A stretch of 64,000 bases of DNA from Pseudorhodoferax soli (lineage in GTDB: Bacteria; Pseudomonadota; Gammaproteobacteria; Burkholderiales; Burkholderiaceae_C). Shown here piece by piece: positions 7,506-19,737 of this stretch; the stretch's first letter is position 1; every line of letters begins with the position of its first letter. The notes below the pieces were generated by a model. The model made no database searches. It was not told the DNA's origin and worked only from the letters and a program-made list of their open reading frames with translations. The stretch lies in the NCBI RefSeq assembly GCF_003337555.1, contig NZ_QPJK01000004.1, positions 471,320 to 535,319 of the forward strand, read 5' to 3'. A program made the translations under genes and the position numbers.

Positions 7506-9131
7506 TCAAGGCCGCCTGCGCGCGTCCTCCCGGATCATGTCCACCGCCTTCTCGGCCATCATCACCGCCGGTGCATGCGTGTTGCCCGACACCAGCGTGG
7601 GCATGGCCGAGCAATCGATGACGCGCAACGCGGCGATGCCGCGCACGCGCAGCCGCGGGTCGAGCACGGCGGCCGCGTCCACGCCCATGCGGCAGGTGCC
7701 GCTGGGGTGGAAGATGGTGGCGCCGTTGTCGCGGCAGAAGGCCAGCAGCGCAGCCTCGTCGGCGGCATCGGGCCCGGGCTTGACCTCGCGCCGCACGTAG
7801 GGCCGCATCGAAGGTGCGGCCGCGATCGCGCGGGCTGCCTGCATGCCGGCCACGGCCGTGCGCCGGTCCAGTTCGGTGGCCAGGTAGTTGGGCTGCATGG
7901 AAGGCGGCTCGAACGGGTCGGCCGAGCGGATGCGCACGCGCCCGCGCGACTCGGGCCGCAGCTGGCACACCGACATTGTGAAGCCCGAGAACGGATGCAC
8001 CTTGCCGCCGGCCATGTCGGCCGACAGCGTGGCCACGTGGAACTGGATGTCGGGCGTGGTGGCCACGGGCAGGCCATCGGGCCCGCGCAGGGCGCGCAGA
8101 AAGCAGCCGCCCTGGTTGATGCCGACCGCCAGCGGGCCGCTGCGCGCCAGCAGCCACTGCAGGCCCAGCCGCGTCTGGCCCCACCAGGTGCGCAGCTGGT
8201 CGTTGGTGGTGATGGGCTTGGTGCACTCGTAGATCAGCCGGATCTGCAGGTGGTCCTGCAGGTTCTCGCCCACGCCTGGCGCGTCGTGCACCACGGGAAT
8301 GCCGTGTTCGGCCAGCAGCGCGGGCGGGCCGATGCCCGAGAGCTGCAGCAGTTGCGGCGACTGCAGCGCGCCGGCCGCCAGCAGCACCTCGCCGCGGCAG
8401 CGTGCCTCGCGCAGGATGCCGTCCTGGCGCCAGCGCACGCCCACGGCACGCCGCCCCTCCAGCAGCACGCCGGAGGCGAAGGCGCCGGTCTCCACGCGCA
8501 GGTTGGGGCGGCCGCGGGCTGGCTTGAGGTAGGCCTTGGCGGCGCTCACGCGCAGGCCGCGGTGCGTGGTCAGCTGGTAGTAGCCGGCACCCTCCTGGCG
8601 CGCGCCGTTGAAATCGGACGTCGCCGGCACGCCGATCTCGCCGGCCCCGGCGATGAAGGCCTCGATGAGCTCGTGCCGCGCGCCGATGTCCGACACCCGC
8701 AGCGGGCCCGCGTCGCCATGCAGCGCGATGGCGCCGCGCTGGTTGTTCTCGGACTTCACGAAGTAGGGCAGCACCTCGTCGTAGCTCCAGCCGGTGTTGC
8801 CCAGCGCGGCCCAGTGGTCGTAGTCCTCCTGCTGGCCGCGGATGTAGATCAAGCCGTTGATGGAGCTGCTGCCGCCCAAGGTCTTGCCGCGCGGCCAGTA
8901 GATGCGCCGGCCGTTCATGTTCGGGTCCGGGTCGGTCTGGTAGCACCAGTTGAGCTCGGGGCTCCACATGGTCTTGCCATAGCCGATCGGCAGGTGGATC
9001 CAGGGCGAGCGGTCAGGCGGGCCGGCCTCCAGCAGCAGCACGCGCGTGCCCGGGTCCTCGGACAGGCGCGCCGCCAGCACACAGCCAGCGGAGCCGGCAC
9101 CCACGACAATGTGATCGAACACCTCTGACAT
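7506..9131 (-). CDS. iseJ: GMC-family flavoprotein dehydrogenase, probable isethionate dehydrogenase
   Basis: FAD-dependent alcohol dehydrogenase of 541 residues. The dinucleotide-binding motif GAGSAG is at 11-16, the GMC signature segments are RGKTLGGSSSINGLIYIRG and GALQSPQLLQLSGIG, and the C-terminal active-site histidines are H475 (HPSGTCRMG) and H519 (SGNTHAP). Known isethionate clusters pair a GMC dehydrogenase (IseJ) with a TRAP system (IseKLM) and an IclR regulator (IseR), the same set as here next to xsc. The product would be sulfoacetaldehyde. Without that context it would be called a choline-dehydrogenase-like enzyme, so the substrate is inference. Confidence 0.85.
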   Translation of the reverse strand: MSEVFDHIVVGAGSAGCVLAARLSEDPGTRVLLLEAGPPDRSPWIHLPIGYGKTMWSPELNWCYQTDPDPNMNGRRIYWPRGKTLGGSSSINGLIYIRGQQEDYDHWAALGNTGWSYDEVLPYFVKSENNQRGAIALHGDAGPLRVSDIGARHELIEAFIAGAGEIGVPATSDFNGARQEGAGYYQLTTHRGLRVSAAKAYLKPARGRPNLRVETGAFASGVLLEGRRAVGVRWRQDGILREARCRGEVLLAAGALQSPQLLQLSGIGPPALLAEHGIPVVHDAPGVGENLQDHLQIRLIYECTKPITTNDQLRTWWGQTRLGLQWLLARSGPLAVGINQGGCFLRALRGPDGLPVATTPDIQFHVATLSADMAGGKVHPFSGFTMSVCQLRPESRGRVRIRSADPFEPPSMQPNYLATELDRRTAVAGMQAARAIAAAPSMRPYVRREVKPGPDAADEAALLAFCRDNGATIFHPSGTCRMGVDAAAVLDPRLRVRGIAALRVIDCSAMPTLVSGNTHAPAVMMAEKAVDMIREDARRRP

Positions 9132-9134
9132 TGG

Positions 9135-9197
9135 ATTTCCGGAACGTTGGCTTCCGAAATGAAGTCGAGGCGATTATTCTTGGAATAAAACGTTCCG
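9135..9197. promoter_or_regulatory. Paired inverted operator-like sites between iseJ and iseR
   Basis: CGGAACGTT (9140-9148) and AACGTTCCG (9189-9197) form a perfect 9-bp inverted repeat, with the palindromic AACGTT core in each arm and centres 48 bp apart. The first arm lies inside a larger imperfect dyad (ATTTC/GAAAT ends, 9135-9160). The sites fill the short gap between the divergent start codons at 9131 and 9205, so one regulator could control both genes. Confidence 0.45.
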
Positions 9198-9204
9198 TTT
9201 CTTG

Positions 9205-9993
9205 ATGAATACCCTGAGCAAGCCCGTGAAAGCGTCAGCCCCCTCGAAACTGCCCGATTCGTCCGCGGCCCGCAGCCTGCGTGTGCTGGCGGCCGTGGCG
9301 GGGGCGGGCCATGCGCTCACGCTGGCCGAGTTGGCCGAGCGACTGGGCCTGCCCAAACCCACGCTGCACCGGCTCTGCGGCCAGCTGCAGGAGGGCGGCT
9401 TTCTCGCGCGCGATGTGGACGAACGCTGCTTCGTGGTGGGCCCCGCACTGCGCCAGCTGGCCTTCGACACGCTGAACCATGGCGCTGCGCGCGGGCTGCG
9501 CCACGATGTGCTGGCGCGGCTGGTGCAGCAGGTCGGCGAAACCTGCAACTTCACCACGCTGGACGGCATGCGCGTGCTCTACCTGGACCGCGTGGAGGCG
9601 CACTGGCCGTTGCGGCTCACGCTGGAGGTCGGCTCGCATGTGCCGCTGCATGCCACCGCCAGCGGCAAGCTCTTCCTGGCGCTGATGCCGGCCGCCGAGC
9701 GCGATGCGCTGATCGGCCAGCTGGTGCTGGAGCGGCTCACGCCCGAGACGCTCACCGACGCACAGGCGCTGCGCGCCGAATGCGTGCAGATTGCGGCCCA
9801 GGGCCATGCCGACGACCGTGGCGAGTTCATCGCCGGGTTGATCGCCGTGGCCGTGCCGGTGCTCGACAGCCAGGGGCGGCCCAGGGCGGCGATCGCCGTG
9901 CATGCGCCGACGGCCCGCATGTCGCTGGCGCAGGCGCGCGAGAAGCTGCCCTTCCTGCACGCGGCCGCGGCGCGGATGCGCACGCTGCTGTAG
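9205..9993 (+). CDS. iseR: IclR-family transcriptional regulator, probable IseR
   Basis: 262-residue regulator with an N-terminal winged helix (LTLAELAERLGLPKPTLHRLCGQL, about residues 38-61) and an IclR effector domain (VLYLDRVEAHWPLRLTLEVG, then LHATASGKLFLALM). It is divergent from the GMC dehydrogenase gene and separated by only 73 bp holding a paired inverted repeat, which points to control of the iseJ-TRAP operon and itself. ATG 9205 is preceded immediately by an in-frame TTG at 9202. The isethionate-responsive role is inferred from the cluster layout. Confidence 0.88.
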   Translation: MNTLSKPVKASAPSKLPDSSAARSLRVLAAVAGAGHALTLAELAERLGLPKPTLHRLCGQLQEGGFLARDVDERCFVVGPALRQLAFDTLNHGAARGLRHDVLARLVQQVGETCNFTTLDGMRVLYLDRVEAHWPLRLTLEVGSHVPLHATASGKLFLALMPAAERDALIGQLVLERLTPETLTDAQALRAECVQIAAQGHADDRGEFIAGLIAVAVPVLDSQGRPRAAIAVHAPTARMSLAQAREKLPFLHAAAARMRTLL

Positions 9994-10041
9994 CGCGGCT
10001 GCTGCGTAGCGGACCCGGGCAGGACGGCAGGACTGCTGCGG

Positions 10042-11106
10042 CTAAACAGGCTTGCACAGACCCAGGATCCGTTCCTGCTGCGCGCAGTCCTTCGCAGGTT
10101 TCGATTTGACAGGCACTGCCACATTCGCCTTCCCGGCGATACAGGAGCGGATTTCCCGCGTCGTCGGAGCGTAGTAGAACCAGCCGCGACCGAGATCCGG
10201 AAGCGCCAACTCCACCTCTCTCCACTTCGGGTGCCCTTTTTCTTGGAGCGTCGAGAAGTTCTGGCACAGCGCGCGCGCCATATTGCGCAGGTTGGTCTCT
10301 GTCTCCTTGAGCTGAAAATCGTAGGTGACAAGGAAGGCCTTGACCGCCAATCCCGGGATGTCCGTTGTCAGCAGGTTGGGATAATTTTTGGCCAGAACGC
10401 TGGCTGCGAAATAGGTCTTGAGAACCCCTGCGCTGGTTGAATGGTTGGGGTCGAACTTGAGCAGTTTGATCAGCTTGCGCGATTCCGGCTTCATGTCGAC
10501 GAACAGCTTGGCAGGCTGGCCGGCGACAACGGCAACCACGTCGACCGTCTTGTCGGTCACCAATTTGCTCAGCGCCTCTTCGTTGGAGAGGTAACTGGTG
10601 CCTGCCTGCGGCATGGGTCCGCCAAACATCAGGCGGTAGAGCGTTGCAGAGGTCAGCGCCGTTCCGCTTCCTGACTCGCCGGCATTGACCTTCGCATTCT
10701 GGATCTCGTGGATATAGTTCAGCTCCGAGTCGGCCCGGACGATGAAATAGATTTCCTCGTTATAGAGCGGCATGACCACCCGCAACGGCCGGATCATGTC
10801 GCGGGCTTCCACATTTCCGCCAGCGGCAATGTCGAGAAAGGCCTGGTAGACGTCCGATTGCACCAAGGCCAGTTTGACGCCCGCGTCGTAACGCAAGCGC
10901 CGGACATTTTCTGCCGATCCGGCTGAAGGCAGGGCGTCGAGCTTGATGTCCGCAGAGGGCGCAACCAGCTGGGCGAGATCGTTCCCGATCTTGATGTAGG
11001 TTCCCCGCTCGGAAGCGGTGACGATTTTGTATTCCACCGCCGCGAGCGCAGGGAGATGGGAGAGCACTCCCATCAGCAGCAGCACGCTCCATATGAAGTT
11101 GTTCAT
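10042..11106 (-). CDS. TAXI-family TRAP-type periplasmic receptor without permease
   Basis: 354-residue exported solute-binding protein of the TAXI family. A Sec signal peptide (MNNFIWSVLLLMGVLSHLPALAA) precedes VEYKIVTASERGTYIKIGNDLAQ, the usual TAXI opening; NAGESGSGTALTSATLYRLMF and TSYLSNEEALSKLVTDKTVDVVA follow. No TRAP membrane gene of the matching fused type lies nearby, so it may act as a sensor or adaptor rather than in uptake. The last residues are CAQQERILGLCKPV, a motif shared with the protein encoded just upstream. The stop of that gene overlaps closely with this start (11106/11108). GC content is clearly lower than in flanking genes, suggesting acquisition. Confidence 0.85.
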   Translation of the reverse strand: MNNFIWSVLLLMGVLSHLPALAAVEYKIVTASERGTYIKIGNDLAQLVAPSADIKLDALPSAGSAENVRRLRYDAGVKLALVQSDVYQAFLDIAAGGNVEARDMIRPLRVVMPLYNEEIYFIVRADSELNYIHEIQNAKVNAGESGSGTALTSATLYRLMFGGPMPQAGTSYLSNEEALSKLVTDKTVDVVAVVAGQPAKLFVDMKPESRKLIKLLKFDPNHSTSAGVLKTYFAASVLAKNYPNLLTTDIPGLAVKAFLVTYDFQLKETETNLRNMARALCQNFSTLQEKGHPKWREVELALPDLGRGWFYYAPTTREIRSCIAGKANVAVPVKSKPAKDCAQQERILGLCKPV

Positions 11107-11107
11107 T

Positions 11108-11773
11108 TCAGCGCTTCTCCTGTCGTGGTTCCGGATTGCACAGCCCCAGCGTTGCGACGGCAGGCGGGCATTTTTCAACGCCCGATGGGTCTGGGCCGTT
11201 CTTGACTTCGGCGTCGGTGGCCGGCAATGGGCGCGCAGCCGGCACAGCGTCGGCGCCTTCTGGCAGCGGCACACGTGGATTTGGAACCGGGCCCACCGGT
11301 TTGGAAGCGGCGTCCGTTTCGGCTGCCATATTGGCGGGTGCCGCATTCCCACGAAAAAAATACGCCGCCGCAGCACCTGCAATCAGCAGGAGCAATATTG
11401 CCAAGACCGCCGCGGGTGTGCCACGTTCAGGCTTCGCGCCGGTATCCGGCTTGTCGAGAACACCGGCAGGCAGGTGCCCCGCCTCCGAACGCGCCACTCC
11501 GATGTCTGTCGATGGGGAGTAAGCGGATTCCCTGTCGACGATCGCCGGCGGGAACGGGAATTCAAGTCTCGTCGCAACTGGCAGAGAGAACTTGGCGCCG
11601 CATTTGTAGCAGTTCGTCGCTGTTCGCAGGTCGACTGCGCCACACCGGCGACAGGGTTGCAAATTCAACTGTCCGTCGCAACGACGGCAATCGTCTGCAT
11701 CAGCCGGATTGATGTGCTGGCAGAAGAGGCACTGGAGACTGGGCATCTGCGACATCTCGGGTGGTGACCTCAT
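11108..11773 (-). CDS. Membrane-anchored double zinc-ribbon protein
   Basis: About 221 residues. Two CxxC-CxxC zinc ribbons occupy the N-terminus (C15/C18 with C29/C32 and C41/C44 with C55/C58 if ATG 11773 is used), a Pro-rich linker follows, then one membrane helix (AAVLAILLLLIAGAAAAYFF, about 121-140) and a Pro/Ala-rich tail ending in CPPAVATLGLCNPEPRQ. The predicted topology puts the ribbons in the cytoplasm and the tail in the periplasm. The tail motif C-x6-LGLC-[KN]-P matches the end of the periplasmic TAXI protein encoded directly downstream, so the two probably work together. ATG 11755 or 11746 are alternative starts. No function is known to me. GC is low, as in its partner. Confidence 0.7.
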   Translation of the reverse strand: MRSPPEMSQMPSLQCLFCQHINPADADDCRRCDGQLNLQPCRRCGAVDLRTATNCYKCGAKFSLPVATRLEFPFPPAIVDRESAYSPSTDIGVARSEAGHLPAGVLDKPDTGAKPERGTPAAVLAILLLLIAGAAAAYFFRGNAAPANMAAETDAASKPVGPVPNPRVPLPEGADAVPAARPLPATDAEVKNGPDPSGVEKCPPAVATLGLCNPEPRQEKR

Positions 11774-11899
11774 ACAGTCAGCGAAGTTGCGTCAGTACTT
11801 TGGTGAATCAGGGCCAGTAAATCGGAGTGCGGGCGAACCGATTTTTATCTTACGTCAACGCGCCGACACAGCAGCCATCGTTTGCCCCCTCCCCCACCC

Positions 11900-11919
11900 G
11901 AGGTGCCTTAAGACACCTC
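11900..11919. repeat. Near-perfect 20-bp palindrome in the intergenic stretch
   Basis: GAGGTG (11900-11905) and CACCTC (11914-11919) enclose the palindrome CTTAAG (11907-11912), giving 9 of 10 paired positions. It lies upstream of the zinc-ribbon gene and downstream of the TauE-like gene, both on the minus strand. It could be an operator or the stem of a terminator; no T-run follows. Nothing else is recognisable in 11774-12037 apart from an AT-rich patch near 11820-11850. Confidence 0.35.
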
Positions 11920-12037
11920 CCTGGTCGGCCCGAGAAACAAAGGTCCGCCACGGGAGTGCAGGCGCAAGCACTCCGAAGCGACGCGGAACCCGCTTTTCAA
12001 CACATGGGCCGAGGCGAACGCACGCCCGGCCACACCA

Positions 12038-12844
12038 TCACACCGCGCCGACCACACCCCAGACTGCCCGCCCCAGCGCCAACACGGCCAGCACACCCAG
12101 CAGATCCAGAAGCCGCCGCCGGAACTGGTCCGGCGACACGCGCGCGAACGCGTGGCTGCCGAGCCAGATGCCGGCCACCATGGCCGGCGCCAGCCACAGC
12201 GCCCAACGCCAGGTGCCGGCGCCCACCAGCGCGCCCGCATCGGCGGCACGCGGCAGCATGGCGGCGAAGGCCAGGGCCAGCACGTCGGAGCACAGCAGCA
12301 TCAGCACCATGGTCGCGCGCAGCGCGGACGGCGCCATGCGCGTGGCGCTCAGCAGCACGGCCACCACGATGCCGCCGATGGCGGCCACGCCGTTGACCAC
12401 GCCCGAGGCCATGCCGACCGCGCCGCGCATGCGCGGCGTGGGCTCCAGCGCCGGCCGCGCGCCGCTGCGCAGGGCCAGCACGGCGGCCACCAGCAAGCCG
12501 CCGATCACCAGGCGCAACCCGCTCTCGGGCAGCCAGGCGAGCAGGGCCACGCCGACCGGCACGCCCAGCACCTGCCCGGCCACCAGCGCGCGCAGCCAGG
12601 GCCAGTCGGCGTCGCGCAGGCCCACGCGCAGCATGTGCAGGCTGGCCAGGATCTCCAGCAGGAAGATGGAAGGGATCACGGCCGAGGGCGCGACCAGCAG
12701 CGACAGGCCGGCCACGCTGAAGGCCGAGAAGCCGAAGCCCGCGAAGCCGCGCACGAAGCCGGCGCCCAGCACCACGGCCAGGGCCGCCACCAGGGACCAG
12801 CCGGCCAGCGGAGGGAGCAGCAGCGTGGCGGTCAAGAGCGACAC
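12038..12844 (-). CDS. TauE/SafE-family anion exporter
   Basis: Polytopic membrane protein of about 268 residues of the TauE/SafE (DUF81) family. It begins with hydrophobic segments around GAGFVRGFAGFGFSAFSVAGL, the family's Gly-rich signature, and repeats a related pattern at GVVNGVAAIGGIVVAVLLS. Members near xsc genes are thought to export sulfite or sulfoacetate, which fits here because Xsc releases sulfite. The longest frame starts at GTG 12844, but a GGGAGG sits 8 nt before an in-frame TTG at 12835, which is the better start. Other TauE/SafE proteins have unrelated roles, so the substrate stays open. Confidence 0.82.
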   Translation of the reverse strand: MSLLTATLLLPPLAGWSLVAALAVVLGAGFVRGFAGFGFSAFSVAGLSLLVAPSAVIPSIFLLEILASLHMLRVGLRDADWPWLRALVAGQVLGVPVGVALLAWLPESGLRLVIGGLLVAAVLALRSGARPALEPTPRMRGAVGMASGVVNGVAAIGGIVVAVLLSATRMAPSALRATMVLMLLCSDVLALAFAAMLPRAADAGALVGAGTWRWALWLAPAMVAGIWLGSHAFARVSPDQFRRRLLDLLGVLAVLALGRAVWGVVGAV

Positions 12845-12911
12845 CTCCCGTCAGGCCGTGCACGGGGTGCAGGTGGCGGGCGGACCGCCACGGCGAGGAT
12901 GCAGCACGCCT

Positions 12912-13271
12912 TCAAGGCGGTGCGTTCCTGAGCCTGCGCAACTGCTCCTCGGTGCGCCCGAGCTGGGCGCGCAAGGCCTCGATCTCCTGCTCGAGCAGCT
13001 CGATGCGGGCCGCCCGGCTGGCCTGCGCCGGCCCGGCATGGCAGCGTGCCTGCAATGCCGCCAGCTGCTTGTCCAGCTCGCGGCGCAGCAGCATGCGGCC
13101 TTTCGCGCGCGCATCGCCGATCTCCTCCTCGATGGCCGACAGCTGCGCGGCGCACGCGGTGTCGTCCACCGCGGCCGCGGGCTGTTGGGCAAAGGCGGGT
13201 GCCGCCAGGGCGGCGAGGAAGGCCGCTGAGAACGCCATTCGGCAGGCCAAGGTGCAAGGGCTGACGCGCAT
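12912..13271 (-). CDS. DUF1090-family periplasmic coiled-coil protein
   Basis: 119-residue exported protein. A signal peptide ends at about residue 28 (FLAALAAPAFAQ). The mature part has two cysteines (CAAQLSAIEEEIGDARAKG and LQARC) and a heptad-rich C-terminal helix (ELLEQEIEALRAQLGRTEEQL) predicted to form a coiled coil. This is the pattern of DUF1090 (E. coli YqjC) proteins, whose role is unknown. It stands alone between the exporter and the taurine ABC operon and shows no link to sulfonate metabolism. Confidence 0.8.
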   Translation of the reverse strand: MRVSPCTLACRMAFSAAFLAALAAPAFAQQPAAAVDDTACAAQLSAIEEEIGDARAKGRMLLRRELDKQLAALQARCHAGPAQASRAARIELLEQEIEALRAQLGRTEEQLRRLRNAPP

Positions 13272-13398
13272 ACCGGTCCGTGGAGAAGGGCCTCCGAGCA
13301 TGCCAGCAATTGCGCCACCGACCTCTGCTACCGGCATGCCCGGCGCGCCCAGGGGCGATTGCCGCACCGGCAGGCCGGCGCGCCACCGGTGCCTGCGG

Positions 13399-14256
13399 CT
13401 ACATGCGCCCCTTCCACGGCACCACGCGCCGCTCGACCCAGCGCATCAGCAGGTCGAACAGGTAGGCCACCACGCCGATCACCACGATGCCCATGATCAC
13501 GATGTCGGTGCGCAGGAAGTTCGATGCGTTGAGCACCATCTGCCCCAGGCCCATGTTGGCCGCCACCATCTCGGCCGCCACCAGCGTGGTCCAGCCGAAG
13601 CCAATGGCGATGCGCATGCCCACCAGGATCTCGGGCATGGCCGCAGGCAGCACCACATGGCGCACCACCTGCCAGTAGCTCGCGCCCATGGAGTAGGCGG
13701 CGTTGATCTGCTCCTGCGCGGCGCTGCGCATGCCCGAGCGCGCGGCTAGCGCCAGTGGCGCGAAGCACGACAGGAAGATCAGCAGCACCTTGGGCAGCTC
13801 GTCGATGCCGAACCAGATGATGATCAGCGGCAGGTAGGCCAGCGGCGGCAGCGGGCGGTAGAACTCCAGCGGGGGGTCGAAGATGCCGCGCGCCCAGCGG
13901 CTCATGCCCATGGCGATGCCGACCGGGATCGCCGTCACGCAGGCCAGGAAGAAGGCCGAGAACACGCGGAACATGCTGGCCAGGAAGTGCTGCCACAGCG
14001 GCTTGTCATTGGCCTGGCCGGTCAGGTACTGCCAGAACTGCTCGAACACGGCCTGCGGCGTGGGCAGGAACAGCGGCTTGACCCAGCCCATGTTGGTCAC
14101 GATGGTCCACAGCGCCAGCAGCGTGACCACGGTGGCCACGCTGATGGCGCCGCTGTTGCCTTCTCCGGGCGTGCGGAAGCGGCTGGTCTTGACGGGGGCG
14201 GCGGATTGCACCGCGGCAGCCGCCGGCACGGTCATGGCGGGGGCACTGTCAGGCAT
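13399..14256 (-). CDS. tauC: Taurine ABC transporter permease
   Basis: Inner-membrane permease of 285 residues in the nitrate/sulfonate/taurine ABC class. After a Pro/Ala-rich start come about six helices and the cytoplasmic coupling loop ([29 protein letters not shown]) that docks onto the ATPase. Start ATG 14256 lies inside the end of tauB (8-bp overlap), so the two are translationally coupled. The order tauA-tauB-tauC and the neighbouring tauR and tauXY support taurine as substrate rather than alkanesulfonates. Confidence 0.88.
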
Positions 14257-15046
14257 GGGCGGGCTCCAGTGCTTCGCGGTGGTGGATGATGGCCAGCACC
14301 TCTTCGCGCATGCGGATGAAGGCCGGCTCGGACTTGACCTTGCGCGCGTCGCCATGCGCGAGGAATTGGCGCGAGAACGGCACCTCGTCGTAGACGTGCG
14401 AGATGCGGCCGGGGCTGGGGCTCATGACGATCAGGCGGGTGGAGAGGAACAGCGCCTCCTCCACGTCGTGGGTGATGAAGAACACCATCTTCTGCGTGGC
14501 CATCCACGCGCGCAGCAGGATCTCCTGCACCTGCTCGCGCGTGAAGGCATCCAGCGCGCCCATGGGCTCGTCCATGAGCAGCACGGCCGGGTCGTTGGCC
14601 AGCGCCCGCGCGATGCCCACGCGCTGCTGCATGCCGCCCGAGAGTTCGTAGACGGCGCGGTCGGCGTACTTGGCCAGGCCCACCAGGGCCAGCTTCTCTT
14701 CGGCAATGCGTCCACGCTCGGCCGCCGGCACGCCGCGCAGCCGCAGGCCCAGCGCCACGTTGTCGCGGACGTTGAGCCAGGGCATCAGCGCGTGCTTTTG
14801 GAACACCACGCCGCGGTCGGCACCGGGGCCCACCACCGGCCGGCCGTCCAGCAGCACCTGGCCCGACGAGGGCGGCAGGAAGCCGGCGATGCAGTTGAGC
14901 AGCGTGGTCTTGCCGCAGCCCGAGGCGCCGAGCGCAACCACGAAGTCGCCGCCCTGCATGCGCAGGTTGACGGGCGCCAGCGCCTGCAGCGTGCCGCCCG
15001 TGACGGCGTAGTTGACCGTCAGCTCACGGATGTCGAGCGTGGGCAT
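14249..15046 (-). CDS. tauB: Taurine ABC transporter ATP-binding protein
   Basis: 265-residue ATPase driving taurine uptake. Walker [10 protein letters not shown] spans 40-48, the Q-loop is in [12 protein letters not shown], the signature is LSGGMQQR, and Walker B is [13 protein letters not shown] followed by [16 protein letters not shown]. The sequence pattern is that of TauB/SsuB proteins. The gene starts 9 bp downstream of tauA and overlaps tauC, giving a tight three-gene operon. Confidence 0.9.
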
Positions 15047-15055
15047 CGCCTCGCC

Positions 15056-16057
15056 TCACTGGCCCAGGGCCTTCTTCACATACATGTCGGTCACGAAGCT
15101 CGCATAGCTCGGCTTGACCTCCTGCACGCGGCCTTGCTCCTTGAGGAATTCCGCCGTGCCTGTCATCGCCTTGGCCGCGCCGCCGCCCAGCCAGTTGGCC
15201 GATAGCTGCTCTTGCAGCGTGGGGAAGCTGTACAGCGCCATGCCGGCCGGCACGTCCTTGGCGTCGGCCTTGGTCCACTTGGCCACGGCCTTGACCTGCG
15301 GCGAATCGGGCGTCCAGCCCTTCAGGCCCGTGCGCACCTCGGCGTTGGCGCGGTCCAGCGCCTTCACGAAGGCGACCATGAAGGCCTCGTTGGCGGCGGC
15401 CCACTTGGCGTCCACCACGATGCCCTCGAAGGTGGGATAGCCCTGCTTGCCGATGCTGCCGGAGGTGGCGATGACCTTGCCGTTGCCCTTGACCTTGCTG
15501 AGCACCGGGTCCCAGATGAAGGTGGCGTCGATGTCGCCGCGCTCCCAGGCGGCCGCCACCTCGGGCGGGCGCATGTTGTTGACGTTGACCTGGCGCGCGT
15601 CCACACCCGCGGCCTTGAGCGCGGCCATGAGCTGGTAGTGCGCGGTGGAGACGAAGGGCACGCCCACGCGCTTGCCCTTGAGGTCGGCCAGCGTGTTCAC
15701 GCCCGCGCCGTTGCGAGCCACCAGGGCCTCGGCATCGGCGATGTCGGCCGAGACCCAGAACAGCCGGATGTCCTGCCCCTGGCTGGCCGCCGCCGTCAGC
15801 GGGCTGGAGCCGACCTCGCCCATCTGCACGTTGCCCGAGGCCATGGCGCGGATCACATCGCCACCGCCGCCGAACATGCGCCAGTTGATCTTGTAGCCGG
15901 TGGCCTTCTCGACCTCGCCGGACTCCATGACCAGGCGCAGCGGCACCAGCATGTCCTGGTGGGCGAAGGTCACCTCCTTGGTCTGGGCCTGGGCCCCGGC
16001 TGCGAGGACGAGCGCGGCGGCAGCGGCCGCGCGGTGCATGGATCGACGGGTGAACAT
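15056..16057 (-). CDS. tauA: Taurine ABC transporter substrate-binding protein
   Basis: Periplasmic receptor of 333 residues. A Sec signal peptide (about 1-25, ending in LVLAAGAQAQ) precedes KEVTFAHQDMLVPLRLVMESGEVEKATGYKINWRMF, the usual TauA opening. Internal segments such as ASGNVQMGEVGSSPLTAAASQG and DLKGKRVGVPFVSTAHYQL match taurine-binding proteins. Start ATG 16057 has a GGAG just upstream. The 203-bp space up to tauR has no clear promoter consensus, although several CTGG motifs occur in it. Confidence 0.9.
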   Translation of the reverse strand: MFTRRSMHRAAAAAALVLAAGAQAQTKEVTFAHQDMLVPLRLVMESGEVEKATGYKINWRMFGGGGDVIRAMASGNVQMGEVGSSPLTAAASQGQDIRLFWVSADIADAEALVARNGAGVNTLADLKGKRVGVPFVSTAHYQLMAALKAAGVDARQVNVNNMRPPEVAAAWERGDIDATFIWDPVLSKVKGNGKVIATSGSIGKQGYPTFEGIVVDAKWAAANEAFMVAFVKALDRANAEVRTGLKGWTPDSPQVKAVAKWTKADAKDVPAGMALYSFPTLQEQLSANWLGGGAAKAMTGTAEFLKEQGRVQEVKPSYASFVTDMYVKKALGQ

Positions 16058-16260
16058 CTTGGAGATCTCCTGGTTCCCAACGGAAGCACATGTGGCCACC
16101 GCTGGACTGCGGCGCCGGGCGGGGGGCGAGCCGGGCCAATGTGCAGCAAAGGCACACGACACAAAAGAACCAGCGTGCGCCCGTCCATGGGGCCAGGGGA
16201 CCAGGGTGAACCCTTGGTTTGGTGCGGCGCGCACCGACGCCGTGCGCCGCGCAGGGACGC

Positions 16261-17784
16261 TCAGGTGCGCCGCGCGCCGCGCGCCGCCGCGAGTTCGTCC
16301 ACGGCCTTGGCCAGCGCCGCGATGCCGTCGTCGATGCGTTCGGTGGCAATCGACGACAGCCGCAGCCGGAAGTGCGGGCAGGGATAGGGCGGGTGCTGGA
16401 AGAACACGTCGCCCGGCTCGATCAGCACGCCGTGGCGCTGCGCGATGGCGGCCAGCTCAGCGCCGTCCATCCAGGCCGGGGTGTTCACCCACATCGAGGC
16501 GCCGCCCCGCGGCAGCTCGAACGCGAAATCCGGCAGGTGCGTGCGCAGCGCGCGGGCCACCTGCTGCACGCGCTCCTGCATCACGAAGTTGACGCGGCGC
16601 GCGTGCGATTCGTGGTGGCCGAGCGAGATGAACAGCGCGTAGGCATGCTGCAGGAAGGCGCTCGGGTGCCGCACCATGGCATGGCGCAACAGCCGCAGCT
16701 CGGCGATGAGCGCCCGCGGCGCGACGATGTAGCCCAGCCGCATGGCCGGCGACAGGCTCTTGGACAGCGAGCCCACATAGACCACGCGGCCGCTCTTGTC
16801 CAGGCTCTTGAGCGCGGGCATGGGCGCGCCCTCGTACAGGTTCTCGGCCTCGTAGTCGTCCTCGATGATCACGAAGTTGGCCAGTTCGGCCTTGCGCAGC
16901 AGCCACTCGCGCCGCGTGAGCGTCAGCGTGGCGGTGGTCGGGCTCTGGTGCGAGGGCGTGACGAACAAGTAGTCCAGCGGCGCCAGCGTGTCCACCACCA
17001 CGCCCTCGCCGTCCACCGCCACCGGCACCCAGCGCGGGCGCCGCAGCGAGAAGGTGTTGCGCGCATGCGGGTGGCCGGGTTCCTCGAAGCCCAGGCGCTG
17101 GCGCTCGTCCAGCAGCGCGTCGGCCAGCAGCTGGAAGGCCTGCTGCGCACCCACGGTGACGAGGATCTCCTCCTTCAGCGCGAACACGCCCCGCTTGGGC
17201 AGCAGGTGCAGGCGGATCTGCTCGATCAGGTCGGGCACGTCGTCGGTCTCGAAGTCCGGCGTCCAGTGCGCCAGCTGGGCGCGCGCCAGGCTGCGCATGC
17301 AGCACTCGCGGAAGCCCTCGATCGGGAACAGCTCGGGATCGTGCGTGCCGTAGACGAAGGGAAACGGCACCTCGCGCCAGCGTTCCGGCTTGGTCAGCGT
17401 GGGTGCGTCCGCCAGCGAGCGCAGCACGCGCGCGCCCCAGTCCGGTGCCACGCCGCCGCCGCTGCCGAAGCTGGCCTGCGGCGTGGCGCCCACGCTGGCC
17501 GGCCGCGCGTTGCGCGCCACGAAGACGCCGCTGCGCGCACGCGCCTCCAGGAAGCCCTCGTCGATCAGCTGCTGGTAGGCCGCCGTGGCGGTGTTGCGCG
17601 ACAGGCCGAGGAGGCGCGAGAGTTCGCGCGAGGACGGCATCGCCGCGCCGGCCGGCAGCCGGCCCTCCAGGATGGGCTGCACGATGGCCAGCCGCAAGCG
17701 GCCCTGCAAGGGCAGGCCGGGCTGCTCGGGCACGACGAACAGCCTGGCCCACTGGTGGTGCGCATCGGCGCCGGGGGTGCTCAT
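16261..17784 (-). CDS. tauR: MocR/GntR-type regulator with aminotransferase domain, TauR
   Basis: 507-residue regulator: a GntR winged helix at the N-terminus (MPSSRELSRLLGLSRNTATAAYQQL) fused to a fold-type I aminotransferase domain that binds PLP. The PLP-lysine is K342 in VGSLSKSLSPAMRLGYIVAP. TauR is the known activator of taurine genes in alphaproteobacteria, sensing taurine through PLP. Here the gene is flanked by tauA (same strand, downstream) and tauX (divergent), which supports the name. It lacks any sign of being a real aminotransferase gene without DNA-binding domain. Confidence 0.88.
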   Translation of the reverse strand: MSTPGADAHHQWARLFVVPEQPGLPLQGRLRLAIVQPILEGRLPAGAAMPSSRELSRLLGLSRNTATAAYQQLIDEGFLEARARSGVFVARNARPASVGATPQASFGSGGGVAPDWGARVLRSLADAPTLTKPERWREVPFPFVYGTHDPELFPIEGFRECCMRSLARAQLAHWTPDFETDDVPDLIEQIRLHLLPKRGVFALKEEILVTVGAQQAFQLLADALLDERQRLGFEEPGHPHARNTFSLRRPRWVPVAVDGEGVVVDTLAPLDYLFVTPSHQSPTTATLTLTRREWLLRKAELANFVIIEDDYEAENLYEGAPMPALKSLDKSGRVVYVGSLSKSLSPAMRLGYIVAPRALIAELRLLRHAMVRHPSAFLQHAYALFISLGHHESHARRVNFVMQERVQQVARALRTHLPDFAFELPRGGASMWVNTPAWMDGAELAAIAQRHGVLIEPGDVFFQHPPYPCPHFRLRLSSIATERIDDGIAALAKAVDELAAARGARRT

Positions 17785-17817
17785 GGGAGGCGCAGTCTAG
17801 CGCCATGCCGGCACGCG

Positions 17818-17846
17818 ACTGGCGTGGTGGATTGGGGGCCACTGGC
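17818..17846. promoter_or_regulatory. Candidate TauR direct repeats upstream of tauX
   Basis: ACTGGC occurs twice in the same orientation (17818-17823 and 17841-17846), 23 bp apart, about two helical turns, in the 120-bp gap between divergent tauR and tauX. MocR-type regulators bind direct repeats, so this is a plausible TauR target. Six-base repeats are short and could be chance. Confidence 0.3.
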
Positions 17847-17904
17847 ACTATCGCTGCACGGATCAATTGCCTAACCTGCGACGCAACCTGAACAGGAGAG
17901 CGTC

Positions 17905-18303
17905 TTGAACACCACCCCCCCGCCCGTCACCGAAGCCACCCTGGCCGCCTTCAGCGACGCCTGGAACCGCCACGACATCGAGGCCCTGATGTCCTTCATG
18001 AGCGAGGACTGCATCTTCCAGACTGCGGGCGGACCGGATGCCTGCGGCACGCGCCACGTCGGCGCGGCCGCGGTGCGCCAGGCGTTTCCGGCGGCCTGGG
18101 CCACCATGCCCGATGCACAGTGGCGCAACGGCAAGCACTTCGTGCAGGGCGACTTCGGCGTGTCCGAATGGACCTTCACCGGAACGGCGGCGGACGGCAC
18201 GCGTGTGGAGGTCGACGGCGTGGACCTGTTCACCTTCAAGAACGGCAAGATCCACCTGAAGAACGTGTTCCGCAAGACGCGGCCGAACCTGCCGGCGCGC
18301 TGA
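17905..18303 (+). CDS. tauX: Taurine dehydrogenase small subunit
   Basis: 132-residue protein with the NTF2/SnoaL-like fold pattern (LAAFSDAWNRHDIEALMSFMSEDCIFQT at the start, VDLFTFKNGKIHLKNVF near the end). TauX of taurine degraders is a small subunit of this size that works with the flavoprotein TauY to oxidise taurine to sulfoacetaldehyde and ammonium, passing electrons to the respiratory chain. The start is TTG 17905, supported by AGGAG 9 nt upstream. tauY begins 3 bp after its stop. Confidence 0.85.
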   Translation: MNTTPPPVTEATLAAFSDAWNRHDIEALMSFMSEDCIFQTAGGPDACGTRHVGAAAVRQAFPAAWATMPDAQWRNGKHFVQGDFGVSEWTFTGTAADGTRVEVDGVDLFTFKNGKIHLKNVFRKTRPNLPAR

Positions 18304-18306
18304 CAG

Positions 18307-19737
18307 ATGAGCAGCGTGCCTTTCACCGCGTCCGCCAGTCCGGCCGAACGGCGCTACGACCCGCGCTACGACCCCCTGGTCGCGCCCGATCCGGGTGCAG
18401 GACGCGCCTACGCACCGACCTGGTGGGTGGCGAGCGCCGGCCAGCCGCCGCCCGACGACGGCCCCGTGCGCGGCGACTTCGATGCCGACGTGGTCGTCAT
18501 CGGCGCCGGCGCGACCGGCATGTCCACGGCGCTGTACCTGGCGCAGGAGCACGGCATCGCCGCCGTGGTGCTGGAGGCCAACCAGACGTCCTGGGGCTGC
18601 TCCAGCCGCAGCGGCGGCCAGGGCCAGAACGCCAGCGGCCGGCTCAAGCGCAGCCAGTGGATCGCGCGCTGGGGCCTGGACACCGCACGCGCACTCGACC
18701 GCGAGATCCGCACAGGCTTCGAGAACTTCGCCGAGCTCACGCGCCAGATCGACTGCGAGGCCTACGACGGCGGCCATCTCTACATGGCGCACCGGCCCGA
18801 GAAGATCGACTACCTGCGCGATGAGTCGCGCGTGATGAACGAGCAGTTCGGCTACCGCACGCGCATGCTCACGCCGGGCCAGATCCGCGAGGAGTTCTGC
18901 GACGAACGCGAGGCCGCCGGCGCGATGTGGGAGGAGCACGGCATCGGCATCCATCCGCTCAAGTTCACCTTCGGCCTGATGCGGCGGGCCCGCGCGCTGG
19001 GCGTGAAGGTGCATCCGGCCAGCCCGGTGCAGGGCTGGCAGACCATCGGCGGCGTGCACCATCTGCGCACGCCCGGTGGCACCGTGCGGGCGCGCCGCGT
19101 CGCCGTGTGCACGGGCGGCTACACCGGCCAGCAGCTGCACCCGCTGCTCAAGAACAAGATCATGCCGATCCTGTCGAATTCGGTCGTCACGCGCGAGCTG
19201 ACGGCCGCGGAGATGGCCGCCTGCGGCGTGCGCAGCGAGACCTTCCTGACCGACACGCGCACGCTGCGCTTTTACTACCGCTTCCTGCGCGGCAACCGGC
19301 TGCAGCTGGGCAGCCGCAGTGCCGTCACGGGCGCCGACGCCGAAGCGCCCGAACACCTCAAGCTGCTCACCGATGCGATCGCGCGCAAGTTCCCTCCGTT
19401 GGCCGGTGTCGCGATCGACCACTCGTGGTGGGGCTGGGTGGACGTGAGCCACGACATGATGCCGCGCATCACGCGGCCCGACCCGGCGCAGACCATCTGG
19501 TATGCCGTGGGCTACGGCGGCAACGGCGTGTCGTTCTCCACCTGGGCCGGCAAGCGCCTGGCCCAGCGCGTGACGGGCCAGGACGCCGAGCGCGCCGTGT
19601 TCTCCCTGCCCATCTACGACGGGCCGCTGGAGTTCCCCAATGCGTTCGGCGTGGTGCGTTCGTCCTTGCTGGCACCGTTCCGCCGCATCGGCCAGCGTGC
19701 GCTCTACAAGTGGTATTGGCTGCGCGACGAGAAGTAG
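18307..19737 (+). CDS. tauY: Taurine dehydrogenase large subunit
   Basis: 476-residue FAD-dependent oxidoreductase of the DAO (DadA-like) superfamily. The FAD motif is in DADVVVIGAGATGMSTALYLAQEHG (about 57-81), followed by the conserved SSRSGGQGQNASGRLKRSQW and, near the end, VGYGGNGVSFSTWAGKRLA. It lies directly behind tauX and opposite tauR, the arrangement of the taurine dehydrogenase genes described in Paracoccus and Rhodobacter relatives. On its own it might be annotated gamma-glutamylputrescine oxidase-like. The product sulfoacetaldehyde feeds Xsc at the other end of the region. Confidence 0.87.
   Translation: MSSVPFTASASPAERRYDPRYDPLVAPDPGAGRAYAPTWWVASAGQPPPDDGPVRGDFDADVVVIGAGATGMSTALYLAQEHGIAAVVLEANQTSWGCSSRSGGQGQNASGRLKRSQWIARWGLDTARALDREIRTGFENFAELTRQIDCEAYDGGHLYMAHRPEKIDYLRDESRVMNEQFGYRTRMLTPGQIREEFCDEREAAGAMWEEHGIGIHPLKFTFGLMRRARALGVKVHPASPVQGWQTIGGVHHLRTPGGTVRARRVAVCTGGYTGQQLHPLLKNKIMPILSNSVVTRELTAAEMAACGVRSETFLTDTRTLRFYYRFLRGNRLQLGSRSAVTGADAEAPEHLKLLTDAIARKFPPLAGVAIDHSWWGWVDVSHDMMPRITRPDPAQTIWYAVGYGGNGVSFSTWAGKRLAQRVTGQDAERAVFSLPIYDGPLEFPNAFGVVRSSLLAPFRRIGQRALYKWYWLRDEK

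Follow-up and report, generated by a model that had tools for sequence, protein, structure and literature searches.

TAXI proteins are known as binding proteins of tripartite ATP-independent periplasmic (TRAP) transporters (VcGluP, TtTAXI), and binding proteins with membrane partners other than TRAP permeases have already been proposed. In systems of the AioX/AioS type, a periplasmic binding protein acts through a sensor kinase, and twin CX9C (CHCH) proteins carry two CX9C motifs per chain in a helical hairpin. For Bordetella pertussis, a TAXI-GltS system has been proposed in which a TAXI protein, a dimeric predicted lipoprotein, is coupled to a Na+/glutamate symporter (PMC12344293). The present analysis concerns two adjacent genes in a 64,000-nucleotide stretch of a Pseudorhodoferax soli contig (NZ_QPJK01000004.1, positions 471,320 to 535,319; hereafter the window), which encode a TAXI protein and a single-pass zinc-ribbon membrane protein that end in tails of the same cysteine spacing. 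With a probability of about 0.5, the pair is read here as a tethered receptor whose cytoplasmic part is exchangeable and in which the tails would dock the TAXI protein to a membrane-anchored signalling or scaffold protein.

The window TAXI protein belongs to the same sequence family as the TAXI proteins of VcGluP and TtTAXI and has the same fold; in contrast to them, it carries a CX9C tail, with no permease in its operon and no fused TAXI permease over the cut-off in its genome. As in the AioX/AioS type, a periplasmic binding protein is combined with a membrane protein that would pass a signal inward, whereas no kinase domain was seen in the scanned partners, which carry a zinc ribbon or an AAA ATPase or lack any recognised domain. 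The cysteine spacing is that of twin CX9C proteins, but the window proteins have one CX9C tail each, and the tails are modelled at a predicted local confidence (pLDDT) of ~60-68. Like TAXI-GltS (PMC12344293), the window pair joins TAXI to a membrane protein other than a TRAP permease, but its partner spans the membrane with one helix and lacks a transport domain. In addition, two deep relatives have a tailed TAXI in or beside operons of the FtsZl1/Tubulin_2 kind (PMC2875224); unlike those systems, the window genome has no Tubulin_2 match. In the openly readable journal literature searched, no TAXI protein turned up whose partner is marked by a tail common to both. Searches for the TAXI family together with a zinc ribbon, or for LGLC as a periplasmic C-terminal motif, gave no literature match, and nothing relevant on CX9C in the periplasm appeared among the first matches listed. 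The one match that joined TAXI-family TRAP transporters with zinc concerned coral-associated bacteria.

Paired tails and their conservation

The TAXI protein ends ...KDCAQQERILGLCKPV* (Cys codons 10084-10086 and 10054-10056), and the membrane protein ends ...EKCPPAVATLGLCNPEPRQEKR* (Cys codons 11168-11170 and 11138-11140). Common to both is C-x6-LGLC, which amounts to CX9C spacing, and both tails are where the original prediction of an adjacent TAXI protein and zinc-ribbon membrane protein with a shared C-terminal motif had placed them; the trailing [KN]-P that it counted into the motif is not conserved. The TAXI ATG at 11106 follows the TGA of the partner gene after a gap of one base. The start was taken at this ATG, a longer open reading frame of 446 residues being a mechanical extension.

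Table 1. Coordinates of the gene pair and its features in the window
Feature	Position	Strand	Basis
Periplasmic binding protein of the TAXI type (354 aa, signal peptide included)	10042..11106	-	PF16868, TIGR02122, predicted fold
First gene of the pair: 221-aa single-pass membrane protein with a double zinc ribbon on the cytoplasmic side	11108..11773	-	PF12773 DZR
TAXI signal peptide, ~residues 1-22	11041..11106	-	Hydrophobic N-terminus MNNFIWSVLLLMGVLSHLPALA, by eye
TAXI C-terminal tail CAQQERILGLC (CX9C; C341, C351)	10054..10086	-	Alignment, AlphaFold2
Double zinc ribbon of membrane protein, residues 15-59	11597..11731	-	Pfam match
Predicted transmembrane helix of membrane protein, ~residues 121-140	11354..11413	-	Hydropathy
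Membrane-protein C-terminal tail CPPAVATLGLC (CX9C; C202, C212)	11138..11170	-	Sequence, homologues

Among 200 genomes of the same bacterial family, 18 have a TAXI match (23 matches, including the window's own), and wider stretches were read for 20 of the 22 other places. The CX9C tail is present in 19 of these 20 TAXI proteins, the twentieth (L049) being a fusion without a tail. Partners were readable at 17 of the 19 tailed places, where the pattern holds in 14 and is varied in the other three (LALC, LSLC, LGLS); at one locus with a tailed TAXI, the partner is cut by its contig.

A scan of genome contigs extended the comparison to the best 80 loci of at least 115 confirmed relatives; several of these loci hold the same genes as the family set. 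Complete TAXI tails of the form LG[LIF]C or LAIC lie downstream of a tailed partner frame in 45 of 46 cases, four of these frames being cut short (<130 residues). Thirty of the 45 partner tails have the glycine, 14 have Ala, Ser or Asn in its place, and one (L050) ends in LGLS. At L098, a TAXI gene cut by the contig end adjoins a tailed partner. Many Burkholderiales have the pair, and so does Aromatoleum (Rhodocyclaceae).

A different arrangement occurs among the same 80 loci, in which 31 TAXI proteins ending in LLLC or LMLC adjoin a tail-less partner that ends in R-A/S-I...GW and, in 30 of the 31, has at least one CxxC pair. At L109 and L129, with an LLLC TAXI, automated sorting found no partner, and reading showed a ribbon partner of the same kind. 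The pair is thus wider than the motif, because the partners of 33 Paraburkholderia-type loci lack the tail. The absence of the motif from homologous pairs, which the original prediction had named as a possible refutation, therefore applies to these 33 partners, while the motif is kept in the main clade. In L093 (2777-3937) and in the other Paraburkholderia, Caballeronia and Trinickia loci, the partner ends in ERAI...GW, and similar ERAI...W segments recur internally.

In a TAXI alignment of 70 of 81 sequences (the 80 loci plus the window; L098 and ten Paraburkholderia-type rows were left out), the mean share of the commonest residue is 0.73 in the body, 0.36 in the linker and 0.70 in the tail. 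The corresponding values for the partner (12 rows) are 0.41 in the linker and 0.82 in the tail. Both tail cysteines and L348 are invariant in 70/70 TAXI rows; the invariant cysteines occupy mature positions 259, 300, 319 and 329, of which the last two form the tail pair.

When a profile of both tails was searched against 16 genomes, 32 matches were obtained at E<=0.002, and all 32 are pair members. Recovery of such members follows by construction, because the profile was built from such tails; the informative part is that no other gene in the 16 genomes reaches E<=0.002. Above this value, the matches mix true members with noise. Four of the next matches were read and, by eye, either fall within spurious frames or are not C-terminal, and no further tailed protein beyond the pair was identified among them. 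Wide occurrence of the motif on unrelated proteins, the other outcome that the original prediction had exposed itself to, did not appear in the 16 genomes, and a general C-terminal tag was rejected on the same ground. A chance likeness of the two tails is ruled out by their conservation together with this genome-wide specificity.

The membrane partner, the TAXI body and fused relatives

Homologues of the window membrane protein lie upstream of TAXI in the relatives, and their membrane helix and tail are kept while the N-terminal module varies. This module is a double ribbon over the cut-off in the window partner (PF12773 DZR, 28.7 bits against a cut-off of 27.3), a single ribbon over the cut-off in L088 and an AAA_22 ATPase in L060, and the N-terminal parts of the partners in L047, L053, L055 and L087 have no Pfam match. 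None of nine relative partners scanned reached the PF12773 cut-off, and no kinase family was among the matches of the window partner and the other scanned partners. The zinc ribbons of the original prediction are thus borne out for the window protein as a double ribbon, but they are not essential to such pairs, since relatives have one ribbon, none recognised or an AAA ATPase. The tail, on the other hand, is present twice in 3/41 partner frames longer than 130 residues (L068, L072, L081) and also in L169.

The window partner has a single predicted membrane helix (hydropathy peak 2.53 at residue 121) and a stretch rich in Pro and Ala. Across the 38 partners whose helix is clear, Lys and Arg average 2.53 in the 12 residues before it and 1.18 in the 12 after it, and their number is higher before the helix in 26 of the 38. 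This bias is in line with a periplasmic partner tail, and the ATPase domains, which lie N-terminal to the membrane segment in the L060 partner and the L049 fusion, likewise argue for a cytoplasmic N-terminus.

The TAXI protein exceeds the curated cut-offs of PF16868 (104.4 bits; cut-off 27) and TIGR02122 (89.1 bits; cut-off 84.35). Its AlphaFold2 model (mean pLDDT 89.5) has a two-lobed binding-protein fold like the solved TAXI structures, and the nearest solved folds in Foldseek are the TAXI proteins 9ibo, 8s4j and 8u79 (E 1e-19 to 4e-17), with AioX and ArrX as remote fold matches. The linker at 306-315 falls below 50 and the tail block stands at 68, with a short helix followed by LGLC. In an artificial single chain of partner tail plus TAXI, both tails were modelled as a five-residue helix before LGLC, at ~61 to 66.

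Three divergent TAXI relatives, L049 (= L027), L028 and L029, are fused to a membrane segment, and all of them lack the tail. The segments of L028 and L029 were read by eye, and the L028 TAXI match is under the Pfam cut-off; the L049 fusion has an nSTAND1 match over the cut-off. These fusions look like a one-chain TAXI sensor. Each has a further N-terminal part besides the membrane segment (L049 7040-9484, L028 1432-3717, L029 3-1409).

A tree of TAXI bodies without tails (88 rows) was made by a quick method, with many branches open or unstarred and long branches flagged. On it, the partner type changes once, and within the family the change of the TAXI tail Gly to Leu or Met coincides with this change; in the clade with tail-less partners, Leu or Met replaces Gly/Ala. 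Loss of the partner tail in the Paraburkholderia type is the simpler reading, because rows with the Cys tail stand on both sides of that clade. A far relative with FKLC represents another change at the tail Gly residue. Co-variation of tail residues was discarded as a statistic, since within the family both changes fall on one branch.

A proposed tethered receptor and its alternatives

In the proposed device, the products of the two genes would form a membrane-tethered receptor of two parts. TAXI would fold in the periplasm and bind a small, probably amino-acid-like ligand, as its fold suggests. The partner would cross the inner membrane with one helix. On the cytoplasmic side it would hold its zinc ribbons, which are replaced in relatives by an ATPase or another segment, and on the periplasmic side a flexible linker rich in Pro and Ala, with the CX9C tail at its end. 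An internal disulfide probably closes each tail into a small knob, in which LGLC follows a helical turn, and the knobs would join the two proteins, either tail to tail or with the partner tail replacing TAXI's own on the TAXI body. Ligand binding could then be relayed to the contacts of the cytoplasmic module, or be placed beside them. Docking by the tails is supported by the fact that 45 of 46 TAXI tails adjoin a tailed partner (one without the last Cys) and by the specificity of the 32 profile matches. Also in its favour are the changing cytoplasmic module beside a constant helix and tail, the partners with a doubled tail, the tail-less fusions, the Leu or Met of TAXI beside tail-less partners, the like local form of both modelled tails, the lack of a third recurrent gene in the compared loci and the lack of a fused TAXI-type permease over the cut-off in 11/16 pair genomes. 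The two-part device that had been predicted, a sensor or scaffold rather than a transporter, is supported: in the main clade the motif is kept in homologous pairs, and no other carrier was identified in 16 genomes. The predicted coupling through a Cys-bearing tail fares worse if it is taken as covalent: the TAXI proteins keep both tail cysteines in the 33 loci whose partners have no tail, which makes an inter-chain disulfide doubtful and one within TAXI more likely than one between chains.

Several observations weigh against this receptor. A profile of the partner tail alone finds most partners well and TAXI tails five times, in 4/16 genomes at E 0.09 to 1.3; in the window genome it finds no TAXI tail at E<=5 (150 of 174 candidates scored). 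The likeness of the two tails is therefore limited to C-x6-LGLC and its spacing. At L092, a tailed TAXI has no adjacent partner, and in its genome, with 150 of 165 candidates scored, the tail profile recovered the TAXI protein itself and nothing else. In Pseudorhodoferax aquiterrae (L050 3151-3972, the same place as L030), a second-copy partner may be decaying, as both its last tail Cys and a zinc-ribbon Cys are gone. Contact between the tails would have to be made by segments that both stand at pLDDT ~60-68 in the models. The Gly change and the difference in partner tails count as one event because they fall on the same branch, of a tree that comes from a quick search and appears partly open. 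Moreover, the fusions may represent one or two events, as they come from two genomes of one genus.

Among the alternatives, it seems rather unlikely that the tails never meet and serve as independent disulfide-closed caps or as a sorting tag that a shared third factor in the periplasm recognises. The persistence of the TAXI tail cysteines beside tail-less partners, the reluctance of partner-only profiles to find TAXI tails and the lone tailed TAXI of L092 would all suit such caps or tags, but a general tag would be expected on more proteins than the pair, no third gene recurs in more than three other compared loci (a comparison insensitive to short diverged genes), and the fused TAXI forms have dispensed with the tail. 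It is improbable that disulfides link the two chains in a split helical hairpin of the twin-CX9C kind, to which each chain gives one helix. Such a hairpin would agree with the exact CX9C spacing of both tails, with the two tail copies in 3/41 partner frames and with the oxidising periplasm; however, TAXI retains its CX9C in the 33 loci without a partner tail, the L050 partner has lost a Cys that its TAXI has not, and in the AlphaFold2 model the helix between the cysteines is just five residues long and ends before LGLC.

Given that TAXI proteins normally serve TRAP permeases and that a TAXI-GltS transporter has been proposed (PMC12344293), the window TAXI could also be an ordinary binding protein of a transporter encoded elsewhere (TRAP, GltS), with the membrane protein merely aiding docking. 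A fused TAXI-type permease over the TIGR02123 cut-off is present in 5/16 pair genomes, the window genome has two GltS matches on other contigs, and a DctP-type TRAP system lies near the pair. Against this, 11/16 pair genomes, the window's included, have no fused (DctQM) permease over that cut-off, GltS matches occur in 5/16, no gltS adjoins TAXI in the window genome, no permease is conserved beside the pair in the compared loci, and a docking helper would need no variable cytoplasmic ribbon or ATPase. Transport through the usual TAXI partner is accordingly unlikely, and this alternative as a whole seems quite improbable. Very improbable is a role as the periplasmic sensing end of an FtsZl1 (Tubulin_2) membrane-remodelling machinery, even though one genome (G500) has consecutive genes for Tubulin_2, for a ribbon-like membrane protein and for a tailed TAXI, another (G799) has a tailed TAXI divergent from an operon of a large uncharacterised protein, Tubulin_2/GYF_2 and a weak-ribbon membrane protein, and in Polaromonas, according to a referee's remark published alongside the FtsZl1 paper (PMC2875224), FtsZl1 has a periplasmic protein of the TRAP type as its neighbour. 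Tubulin_2 occurs in 4/200 family genomes and, in this one draw of genomes, in none of the 18 with a TAXI match; it is present in 2/10 other genomes checked, and the four family Tubulin_2 loci have no TAXI within the stretches read. As a standing partner it was ruled out for the window, whose genome has no Tubulin_2 match at E<=1e-10.

Returning to the tethered receptor, a more general form can be put forward only tentatively, and it is more doubtful than the device itself: matching CX9C tails may be a reusable hook, by which a TAXI sensor plugs its mini-knob into knob-bearing membrane anchors, while the cytoplasmic module is swapped (zinc ribbon, AAA ATPase or other), the knob is multiplied, or the hook is replaced by fusion to an nSTAND NTPase. 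If this were true, it would define a class of modular one-component receptors that involve neither a kinase nor a transporter. Orphan TAXI proteins are easily mistaken for unpaired parts of transporters, and here such a protein would have a specific membrane partner that is no transporter. A short motif that is simple to mutate should determine binding between TAXI and partner, which turns the loose question of orphan receptors into one that a laboratory strain can answer directly.

Genomic surroundings and minor observations

The window's first 24 kb were compared with loci L030-L049 at E<=1e-15, and no gene besides TAXI and its partner was found in more than three other loci, at a threshold at which the diverged partner itself shows in 3-4 loci and short diverged genes would be missed. 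A larger conserved operon was rejected on this basis. Around the pair are genes for an IclR regulator, a GMC oxidoreductase, DctP and DctQ, and a TauE exporter. DctP and DctQ, followed by a DctM-like frame (by eye), form a TRAP system at ~4.7-7.4 kb, 2.6 kb from the pair. The statement that no TRAP permease is encoded thus holds for a fused TAXI-type permease over the family cut-off, throughout the window genome, but not for this nearby DctP/DctQ system, which has its own binding protein. No tandem repeats were found in 9000-13000. A role in anti-phage defence was also considered and rejected: PADLOC gave marginal matches for the ATPase-bearing L049 and L060 only and no match for either window protein.

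An uncharacterised protein of ~480-500 residues is encoded upstream of the pair in the Xenophilus-type loci L045, L128 and L122 and in Variovorax (L080), and near TAXI in L176. L172 (5552-10462) has, in succession, Tubulin_2, a ribbon-like coiled-coil protein of the membrane that ends in RRRLKLCD, and a TAXI ending in RRLLGLCR. The L176 operon (11446-19501) encodes a large uncharacterised protein, a secreted or membrane protein that matches no Pfam family, Tubulin_2 with GYF_2, and a membrane protein with a weak ribbon, and is divergent from a tailed TAXI. Near this TAXI gene, at 8171-8446, a small secreted-looking protein has Cys-rich repeats beginning CYS[IV]R.
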